Source: Bacteroidales bacterium
Lineage (GTDB): Bacteria > Bacteroidota > Bacteroidia > Bacteroidales > Tenuifilaceae
Direction: 5' to 3'
NCBI GenBank assembly: GCA_013376985.1
Contig: JACABB010000001.1
Coordinates: forward strand, 127,560-191,559
Length of the DNA: 64,000 bases
Part shown: positions 6,988 to 39,950 of the stretch, piece by piece
How positions within the stretch are numbered: the stretch's first letter is position 1
Layout: every line of letters begins with the position of its first letter
The notes under the pieces: model-generated
What the model saw: the letters and a program-made list of their open reading frames with translations, nothing else
The model's database searches: none
What the model was told of the DNA's origin: nothing
Position numbers and translations under genes: made by a program

Positions 6988-7535
6988 ACGCATAACTACC
7001 AGAATTCGTTTATTATAATTGCCCACAATAATATCTGGGGAAGAATAAAGAATCCAAATTGTCATCGCCTAACGGCGAACTCGCAAAATGCGCTCGGTTT
7101 CTGCGAACTGTTAGCTCATGAGCGAACCGAATAATGCAGGAACTAAGAAGGGAACTCAGCGAAACTAATCCCCTTCTTTATATCCAGATTCCGGAACTTC
7201 GCCCGAAACCGAGTTTACGAGTTCAGCCAATGACAGATAAGTTTGTTTATCGAAATAGTAATCTAAACGGATATTTATAATTTTTAATTTAAGTTCTGGG
7301 AGATAGAATTAACATTCACAGGTTTCAACTATTACTAACACTTCAAAATTCATATTTAACCTTTTCTTAACACCATCTTTCATTTAAGTTAACACTATAT
7401 CAATAGCTTTGTTTTGGGTGTTTTCCAACGTCCCAAACAGTTAACTCGCTGATTGTGTAAGCCATAGTAATCTTACAAACAATTTGAATATTTACAAGCA
7501 ACTAAGAACAAACAAACTAGGTTAATTCTATAGCT
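6988..7535. repeat. Gene-free spacer with degenerate interspersed repeat
   Basis: Between about 7036 and 7240 the sequence becomes distinctly more GC-rich than its surroundings and carries motifs seen in other spacers of the window: GAATCCAAATTGTCATC-like text, AACTCGCAAAAT (also at about 22909) and CGCTCGGTT (also in the tRNA-Val inserts near 37615 and 37857). It has no long ORF and looks like decayed short interspersed repeats. The rest (7241-7535) is AT-rich leader sequence of the next gene with nothing I can identify. Confidence 0.45.
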
Positions 7536-37409: not shown

Positions 37410-37538
37410 TCCTGAATAATTTCATTCTATAAAGTAAGACAAATTTTTGTCGGAATTGTTCGTCAAGTTAGAACTATTTAACCCTCTTTATTCCCCAGTA
37501 ATATGAGATTTCCTTATTTGCACAACCTTATAAAAGCA

Positions 37539-37567
37539 AGAAACCACTCCTCCGAGTGGTTTCTTTC
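37539..37567 (-). terminator. Hairpin at the left end of the tRNA island
   Basis: An 11-bp perfect stem (AGAAACCACTC 37539-37549, GAGTGGTTTCT 37554-37564) with a 4-nt loop. The poly-T side is short on either strand, so orientation is uncertain; it most likely ends transcripts coming leftward from the tRNA genes. Confidence 0.5.
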
Positions 37568-37571
37568 TATA

Positions 37572-37632
37572 TGCCTTACCGGATTACTCCCTTCGATCGT
37601 GAACTCGTTCCGCTCGGTTAGAACCAGTGACC
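37572..37632 (-). pseudogene. 3' remnant of a tRNA-Val gene carrying a T-loop insert
   Basis: The plus strand here reads GCCTTACCGGA, a 33-nt insert (TTACTCCC ... CGCTCGG) and AACCAGTGACC. This equals the acceptor 3' strand and T-arm of tRNA-Val interrupted by a diverged copy of the insert seen at 37830-37863. The anticodon, D-arm and 5' half are absent. Confidence 0.65.
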
Positions 37633-37641
37633 TTAAAAAAG

Positions 37642-37670
37642 AAAGTCCATCGGTTAGAATGGACTTTTTT
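37642..37670. terminator. Terminator next to intact tRNA-Val
   Basis: A 9-bp stem (AAAGTCCAT 37642-37650, ATGGACTTT 37659-37667) flanked by A-run and T-run on the two sides. On the minus strand it lies 9 bp after the intact tRNA-Val and would end its transcript. Confidence 0.75.
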
Positions 37671-37678
37671 GTGTTTTG

Positions 37679-37753
37679 TGTGCCTTACTGGATTCGAACC
37701 AGTGGCCCCTACCCTGTCAAGGTAATGCTCTAAACCAACTGAGCTAAAGGCAC
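37679..37753 (-). tRNA. tRNA-Val (GAC)
   Basis: The minus strand folds as a complete cloverleaf: acceptor GTGCCTT/AAGGCAC, D-arm with AGTTGGTTTAGAGC, anticodon loop TTGACAG (GAC), T-arm ACTGG-TTCGAAT-CCAGT, discriminator A. The 3' CCA is not encoded. It is the intact one of two tRNA-Val(GAC) copies here. Confidence 0.92.
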
Positions 37754-37815: not shown

Positions 37816-37924
37816 TGTGCCTTACTGGATTACTCCCTCCGGTCGTGAGCTCGCTCCGCTCGGTTCGAACCAGTGACCCCTACCCTGTCAAGGTAATGCT
37901 CTAAACCAACTGAGCTAAAGGCAC
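37816..37924 (-). pseudogene. tRNA-Val (GAC) copy interrupted by a 34-nt T-loop insert
   Basis: This copy equals the intact tRNA-Val apart from one base in the variable region, except that 34 nt (37830-37863) sit inside the T-loop after TTCGAA, before the last loop base and the 3' half of the T-stem. The acceptor, D-arm and anticodon arm are all intact. Without removal of the insert the T-loop could not form its normal tertiary contacts with the D-loop. I call it a pseudo-tRNA; RNA processing of the insert cannot be excluded from sequence. Confidence 0.8.
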
Positions 37925-37964: not shown

Positions 37965-37972
37965 TTACTTGG

Positions 37973-38046
37973 TGGGCCCAGCTGGTATCGAACCAGCGAC
38001 CCTCTGATTATGAGTCAGATGCTCTAACCGACTGAGCTATGGGCCC
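37973..38046 (-). tRNA. tRNA with CAT anticodon (Met elongator, or Ile2)
   Basis: The minus strand gives acceptor GGGCCCA/TGGGCCC, D-arm, anticodon loop CTCATAA and T-arm GCTGG-TTCGATA-CCAGC, discriminator A. The next three bases happen to be CCA (37972-37970), unlike the other tRNAs in the window. A CAU tRNA may be elongator Met or, if modified to lysidine, Ile for AUA codons; sequence alone does not settle this. Confidence 0.88.
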
Positions 38047-38849: not shown

Positions 38850-39950
38850 TCATTCTTTTTCAATTAATGCTAAGCACTCCACATGGATTGTCTGTGGAAA
38901 AAAATCGTACGGAATAAGTCTTGTAACCTTGTATCCATTATTTGTCAATGCAACTAGGTTTTTCGAAAGAGTCCCTGCGCTGCAAGAGAGGTAAGCAATT
39001 CTTTGTGGTTTTCCCTCGCCAATAATCCAATCTAGCACCTCCTGCTCTATTCCTGTTCTTGGAGGGTTGATGTAAAGGTATACTTCTCTCCCAACATCCC
39101 GTTGCTTATTCACCCACTCCCGAATCTGCGGAACTCTTTGTCTACAAGCACCTCTTAGCACGGTTGCATCTGGTATATTGAGTTTTGCACATTCAACAGC
39201 CTCTTTGCCAAGTTCAACACCTATAACATTAGCACCTGCTTTTACCCATCGAGTCATGGATGTGCCTGTGCCACAGTAAAGATCTGCAACGGAATGTTTG
39301 TTGAGAGGGCTAAAAAAGTTTAGTGCTTCATCCAATGAGCTATTGTATAAACTAGGAATTAGCTGCTGAAATGCTCCTGGACTATACCAAAGACCATTAA
39401 AATCTAATGATCTTTCTTGCCCAAATAGTAATTTCCACTCTGCTTTTTCAAATAAACGCCTGCCAGCTGAAGGATTATGGTGAATCCAAAAACCCTGAAC
39501 CCCATTCTGTCGAAGTGCGGTAATGGCATCTTCCGTTAACCAAGAATCATTAAGAACCTTCTTCGCCTTAACAATCAACACAATTTGGGCAGATGTTTGA
39601 ACATAGAATCCTAATGGAAACTCAATACCTGTGGGCAAAAACTTCTTAAGAACGCTGAGAATCTCGTTTACTTCCAGCTTATGAAGAGGACAATCTGGGA
39701 TATCAATTAGCTCATCTCTCGATATCATCCCAAAATGCCAACCATTTTGATCCCTGCGGACATTTAGAGTGGTTTTATGCCTATAGCCCCATCGATTTTC
39801 ATTGGGAACAGAAACAACAGGTTCTAGGATATCGCTCCAAGTTGATAGTTTGCTTGATAGAAATGTGTACTTCTGCTGAAGGCTATCCTCCATAGTCCAT
39901 TCACGATGCTTACAACCTCTACATTCAGAAATACATCCTTTGGGTAACAT
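38850..39950 (-). CDS. TrmA/RlmD-like RNA m5-uridine methyltransferase
   Basis: 366 residues. An N-terminal cysteine cluster (CISECRGCKHREW) is typical of the [4Fe-4S] centre of RlmD-like enzymes, although the usual leading TRAM domain is missing. The C-terminal Rossmann part has DLYCGTGTSM (SAM binding), NPPRTGIEQEVL (substrate motif) and AYLSCSAGTLSKNL, where the Cys is the nucleophile on uridine C6. It methylates a uridine at C5 in rRNA or tRNA; the exact target is uncertain. Single gene. Confidence 0.85.
   Translation of the reverse strand: MLPKGCISECRGCKHREWTMEDSLQQKYTFLSSKLSTWSDILEPVVSVPNENRWGYRHKTTLNVRRDQNGWHFGMISRDELIDIPDCPLHKLEVNEILSVLKKFLPTGIEFPLGFYVQTSAQIVLIVKAKKVLNDSWLTEDAITALRQNGVQGFWIHHNPSAGRRLFEKAEWKLLFGQERSLDFNGLWYSPGAFQQLIPSLYNSSLDEALNFFSPLNKHSVADLYCGTGTSMTRWVKAGANVIGVELGKEAVECAKLNIPDATVLRGACRQRVPQIREWVNKQRDVGREVYLYINPPRTGIEQEVLDWIIGEGKPQRIAYLSCSAGTLSKNLVALTNNGYKVTRLIPYDFFPQTIHVECLALIEKE

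Follow-up and report, generated by a model that had tools for sequence, protein, structure and literature searches.

The second tRNA-Val(GAC) gene of a Bacteroidales genome carries 34 nt inside its T-loop. From the sequence of the window (the whole stretch of 64,000 nucleotides that was analysed), an earlier note proposed that such a gene could be dead, could house a small element that targets the T-loop, or could be a precursor that is processed. Which of these readings holds depends on the anatomy of the locus, on the relatives of the insert and on how it compares with known tRNA-associated repeats.

A tRNA array with two interrupted T-loops

The features of the locus, all on the minus strand, are:

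37970..38046 (-), intact tRNA-Met(CAT), first in the array (ARAGORN and Rfam)
37816..37924 (-), full-length tRNA-Val(GAC) copy with T-loop insert (by comparison with the intact gene)
37830..37863 (-), equivalently 37831-37864 owing to a shared A, T-loop insert of 34 nt
37850..37862 (-), insert hairpin 1, CGA-GC-GGA-GC-GAG, a GNA triloop in a tandem G-A frame
37833..37845 (-), insert hairpin 2, CGA-CC-GGA-GG-GAG, whose framing C-G covaries with T-A in relatives
37678..37753 (-), intact tRNA-Val(GAC) (ARAGORN and Rfam)
37642..37667 (-), terminator-like hairpin 3' of the intact tRNA-Val(GAC)
37572..37632 (-), third tRNA-Val copy, 3'-partial, comprising variable region, T-arm, insert and acceptor 3' strand
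37585..37618 (-), insert inside the third Val copy, with 4 differences from the first insert
37538..37565 (-), terminator-like hairpin 3' of the third Val copy

Read along the minus strand, tRNA-Met is followed by the insert-bearing Val, the intact Val and the 3'-partial Val with its own insert. The 34-nt insert that the earlier note had placed in the T-loop of the second tRNA-Val(GAC) is indeed there, at 37863-37830. Up to the T-loop this copy matches the intact gene at 60/61 positions, and 3' of the T-loop the two are identical; the sole mismatch, a T in place of the intact gene's C, lies in the variable region, as had been noted. Both T-stem strands are retained around the insert, again in line with the first description, and the anticodon arm and acceptor stem are intact. 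The insert, CCGAGCGGAGCGAGCTCACGACCGGAGGGAGTAA, stands after TTCGAA and before the final T-loop base. Because one A is common to both borders, its edges are ambiguous by one base, and TTCGA/A...TA/ATCC and TTCGAA/.../TCC are equivalent descriptions. The chance expectation of the 34-mer was 0.00 in 100 shuffles.

The third Val copy, which the earlier note overlooked, lies downstream of the intact gene, and the full-length insert copy upstream of it. From the T-loop onward it has ~2 mismatches in 16 to the 3' end of the intact Val, it encodes no CCA, and it resembles a tRNA-linked repeat. Neither ARAGORN nor Rfam at its gathering threshold reports the full-length insert copy; cmscan, the Infernal check that had been proposed, gives no more than a partial tRNA match of 22 bits. 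Annotators should be aware that ARAGORN and Rfam overlook insert-bearing tRNA copies of this kind. Sigma-70 promoter matches at the array are close to background level, and the RNA folding z-score is -2.2 for the insert copy versus -1.9 for the intact gene, values that do not tell the two apart. A PF05958 gene of the tRNA (uracil-5-)-methyltransferase family lies ~0.8 kb from the array (window 38850-39950, minus strand). TrmA members of this family modify T-loop U54; the closeness is probably a coincidence.

The array in close relatives

Species G002, of the same genus, has the same array with an insert identical at 34/34 positions. Since this independent congener assembly carries the array, the assembly error that could have undone the observation is excluded, and since the insert predates the split from G002, the suggestion that the change is recent does not hold. 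Random decay, the other possible refutation, does not fit either, because the insert is shared 34/34 and recurs at the same T-loop site in other tRNAs. In the G002 copy the anticodon loop is replaced by a palindrome, TCCGGCAACTGCCGGA, and insert, T-stem and acceptor are unchanged. G003 has a single, intact, insert-free Val at the position of the window's insert copy, with the same variable-region T; thus the insert copy, judged by this correspondence, may occupy the ancestral Val site.

The congener G004 contains a tRNA-Pro(TGG) copy with a 34-nt insert at the same T-loop site, and an intact Pro(TGG) on another contig. It also has an intact Val and a spare Val copy with palindromes in the D and anticodon arms (CTGCCTGCCGGTAGGCAGG and TCCGGCAATTGTCGGA, respectively, at ~860-1000 of L054, G004:C87). 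Other palindromes thus also enter tRNA hairpin loops and, as G002 and G004 together indicate, spare copies collect them. Between G000 and G002, substitutions number 0/34 in the insert and 0/15 in the T-stem 3' strand plus acceptor, versus 13/155 in the spacers. This identity weakly hints at constraint on the 3' module, weakly because 0/34 at the spacer rate has a chance of ~0.05. Elsewhere in the window, at 7070-7140, GCGAACTGTTAGCTCATGAGCGAACCGAATAATGC is a weak (17 bits), possibly truncated relative of the insert element.

Recurrence in spare tRNA copies and between genes

A degenerate pattern of 27 bases, run over 84,980 species genomes, matched 3' copies of tRNA-Arg(TCT) in two Bacteroidales-type genomes, the Pro copy, and two tRNA-Ser-linked loci in a Lysobacterales MAG. 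The first, stricter pattern, applied phylum-wide, returned mostly unrelated GNA repeats and was discarded. A covariance model (R1), built from five Bacteroidales inserts with the T-arm included, found matches in 93/393 genomes of the order at E 0.01; the genomes searched are mostly drafts or MAGs, and E-values of such home-made models are rough. Inspection of 30 R1 loci, one per genome, gave 14 tRNA copies or remnants (Val, Arg, Ser, Pro, Cys and unassigned tRNA remnants), 1 ambiguous locus and 15 dispersed copies without tRNA, a tRNA share inflated by the T-arm contained in R1. In redundant tRNA copies the two-hairpin element has its recurrent home in the T-loop, where it follows nucleotide 58 and precedes 59 or 60; this site preference is in part a product of the search patterns, which contained the T-loop. 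Among the three options first considered, a small element targeting the T-loop is therefore the best supported, as it recurs in Val, Pro, Arg, Ser and Cys T-loops and in dispersed copies.

In most assigned cases an intact gene of the same kind adjoins the insert copy or sits elsewhere in the genome, and two layouts are seen. A full-length or near-full-length insert copy lies upstream of the intact gene for Val in the window and G002, for Cys in G717, G542 and G033, and for Ser in G820, G821, G817 and G823; several of these have no acceptor strand or no CCA, which rules them out as working tRNAs. A 3'-partial insert copy lies downstream of the intact gene for Val in the window, for Arg, for Ser in G009, G011 and G808, and for Pro in G734. 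In G052 (L016), of the window's order, an intact tRNA-Val is followed by three tandem 158-bp repeats, each made up of the 3' end of tRNA-Val and a terminator, the tRNA 3' end being repeated exactly.

Dispersed copies without tRNA score 21-26 bits in the window's own genome and 43-47 bits in other genomes; GAACTTAGCGAAGCGATCTCACGAACGAAGTGAGTAAT is an example. The sequence GAACCGAACGnAGTGAGCTCACGA occurs as multicopy dispersed repeats in G585 (L103, L111, L114, L116-L118) and G778 (L101, L102, L110, L115), some of them a few dozen bases ahead of a short ATGAGTAA reading start. Searches of phages and viral contigs gave no match to the insert, and the single plasmid match was weak and attributed to chance. 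Literature searches confined to open-access papers turned up no account of bacterial tRNAs with inserts in the T-loop.

A covarying two-hairpin module

The inserts share the framework ACYNA-hairpin1-GAKYTCAYGA-hairpin2-GARTA, within which the stems vary freely (GC-GC, AC-GT, CC-GG, and up to seven pairs in GAACGGC-GCCGTTC). In tRNA-borne copies the outer pairs of the two hairpins are kept in 27/30 and 29/30 cases, versus 18.9 and 20.7 on shuffling, and in dispersed copies in 22/22 and 22/22, also above shuffled partners; both comparisons ignore sequence kinship. As the pair framing the tandem G-A in hairpin 2, 17 copies have C-G, 11 have T-A, 2 have T-G and 0 have C-A (Fisher 1.4e-6, likewise ignoring kinship), and in the five-sequence alignment the pair counts exceed all or nearly all shuffles. 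A covarying helix that frames tandem GA is thus found in the insert module, in agreement with the framing helix described for the tyrT-operon RNA in a 2021 review (PMC8250186).

Relation to Lysobacterales inserts and tRNA-linked repeats

In E. coli, the processing of tRNA transcripts gives rise to RtT RNAs. Each annotated RtT unit of E. coli tyrT, AAGGTTCGA[...GAGTA]ATCCTTCCCCCACCACCA, with GAATA in one unit, consists of the T-loop and 3' end of tRNA-Tyr with a 68-nt insert between them. Read from this unit, the arrangement of tRNA-linked repeats (TLRs), a hairpin-rich body joined to a tRNA 3' end in the T-loop, is also that of the window copies. In both, a copied tRNA 3' end adjoins an intact tRNA, and an insert rich in hairpins, with GNA and tandem-GA forms among them, follows TTCGA, ends in GAGTA and is succeeded by ATCC; the window's relative G052 also has tandem repetition in the style of tyrT. 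Differences lie in the insert length (68 nt in E. coli versus 34 nt in the window), in one window host, which departs from classical TLRs in being a full-length tRNA that precedes the intact gene, in the lack of the GGATGAGAACC 5' arm of RtT, and in the phyla concerned, Gammaproteobacteria versus Bacteroidota.

Lysobacterales carry longer versions of the module in the T-loop of extra tRNA-Ser copies. Two of these score 43.8 and 41.9 bits against the Rfam RtT family (RF00391), close to its gathering threshold of 45; the window insert scores 14.9 bits and so falls outside formal RtT membership. R1, built from Bacteroidales inserts alone, gives E ~1e-9 for the T-loop inserts of Lysobacterales and E 0.007 for E. 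coli. A second model with the T-arm removed (R2) retains the Lysobacterales copies at E 3e-5 to 2e-4, and this insert-only model does not recognize E. coli RtT (8.9 bits). The R1 and R2 E-values and the near-gathering RtT scores support homology of the Bacteroidales with the Lysobacterales inserts and of the latter with RtT. The link to E. coli runs through these intermediates and a common anatomy, so that GNA hairpins may have arisen by convergence; common origin is our inference.

TLRs, whose record goes back to 1978 (Egan and Landy 1978; Rudd 1999; both as cited in PMC8144298), are defined by an 18-19-bp 3' end in common with the upstream tRNA (PMC8144298). The earlier remark that inserts in the T-loop are no standard form should be revised, since the E. 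coli RtT repeats, described in the same source as having 18-19 bp in common with the 3' end of the tRNA, take such a form. That account (2021) lists TLRs as without known function and reports in vitro binding of both Hfq and CsrA by three TLRs located at rRNA operons; a claimed role of RtT in starvation was set aside, its retraction being reported in the same source. By standard tRNA numbering, position 59, the T-loop insertion point, should lie 18 nt from the CCA end, which suggests that the 18-19-bp TLR tail is the part of the tRNA 3' of this point. New here are the Bacteroidota members, the full-length hosts and this T-loop explanation of the tail; with them and the dispersed copies, the TLR kind would extend beyond its classical form.

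Other palindromic elements resemble the module in part. Like REP sequences, it is a short palindromic module dispersed between genes (as judged from ORF context) in many copies per genome in relatives; it differs in its recurrent T-loop location. No REP-associated Y1 transposase stands beside the detectable element copies of the window's own genome, and the six Y1 transposases in that genome have no insert-like flanks within ~1.5 kb. Placozoan mitochondrial small inverted repeats are likewise hairpin elements that enter tRNA genes, including a variable-loop hairpin in trnS (PMC7813641), but they differ from the insert in sequence, organelle and tRNA position. Group I tRNA introns have a catalytic core and an anticodon-arm position; the insert is 34 nt long and lies in the T-loop, and an Rfam search of the insert copy gave no intron match.

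Origin and fate of the insert copies

Anatomy, redundancy and recurrence, together with structural covariation and dispersed copies, are matters of observation, and the reading of them that we favour, as reasonably likely, is that a redundant tRNA copy, dead for translation, houses a T-loop element of the TLR type and perhaps yields an RtT-like RNA. The option of a dead gene, as far as translation goes, thus probably stands alongside that of a T-loop element, with 'recent' dropped: the copy is redundant and its G002 counterpart has no anticodon loop. It is unlikely, if still conceivable, that the copy is an ordinary pseudogene, a redundant tRNA that received a REP-like palindrome by chance with neither T-loop targeting nor any relation to TLRs. 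The palindromes in the D and anticodon arms of the G004 spare Val and in the anticodon loop of the G002 copy would be expected on such a reading, as would selection removing insertions from sole copies; the recurrence of one module at exactly one T-loop position across five tRNA isotypes and two phyla would not, nor would an insert unchanged between species next to diverged spacers. The attachment-site remnant of a phage or island that integrated through the T-loop is a very doubtful alternative. T-loops are known integrase targets (PMC1762012), and the 3'-partial third Val copy does resemble an att repeat, but the nine neighbouring ORFs contain no integrase domain, the copies lie ~50-65 bp apart without cargo, the phage and viral-contig searches were negative, and insert and full-length upstream copies would be left unexplained.

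Archaeal tRNAs are known to have non-canonical introns in the T-arm, and every arm of the window copy is intact around the insert. A functional tRNA from whose transcript the insert is removed, that is, a new tRNA intron, is nevertheless extremely unlikely, since the same insert is also present in copies that consist of the 3' part alone or that have no anticodon or no acceptor strand, fragments that were never able to form a tRNA. The insert is also far below group I size, and a redundant intact Val gene adjoins it. In the Lysobacterales MAG SP244, the one tRNA-Ser(GCT) that a search turned up has its D loop and its T loop each interrupted by a large hairpin insert (L120, 4762-5120). Many other tRNAs are missing from the MAG as well, so it cannot prove an insert-bearing tRNA functional, and most relatives have an intact Ser-GCT. 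The insert copy is thus probably a dead tRNA that bears a widespread hairpin element, and not a spliced gene.

For this dead-copy reading we propose that tRNA-Val(GAC) was duplicated in tandem, and that one copy received the element and ceased to be a working tRNA as its neighbour kept the job. One more copy that bears the element, reduced to the 3' part, lies downstream. The element would most likely occupy T-loops of spare copies; sole copies would not tolerate it, hence the adjoining intact gene. Nothing would then prevent the spare copy from decaying, as it has in G002 and G004. If transcribed, it could at most give an RtT-like processed RNA that combines T-stem and hairpins with the acceptor 3' strand, and no spliced tRNA. 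Candidate routes of insertion are a transposase, hairpin-prompted template switching, or a tandem duplication whose junction falls within the T-loop. More tentatively, and as a rather unlikely extension, an ancient hairpin family in at least Bacteroidota and Gammaproteobacteria might enter tRNAs at T-loop 58/59 and spread from there, E. coli TLRs, inserts and dispersed repeats being stages of one mobile cycle in which an enzyme or hairpin-based replication events would do the moving. The site, borders and covarying hairpins provide a concrete model with which to seek the mobilizing activity and test function.
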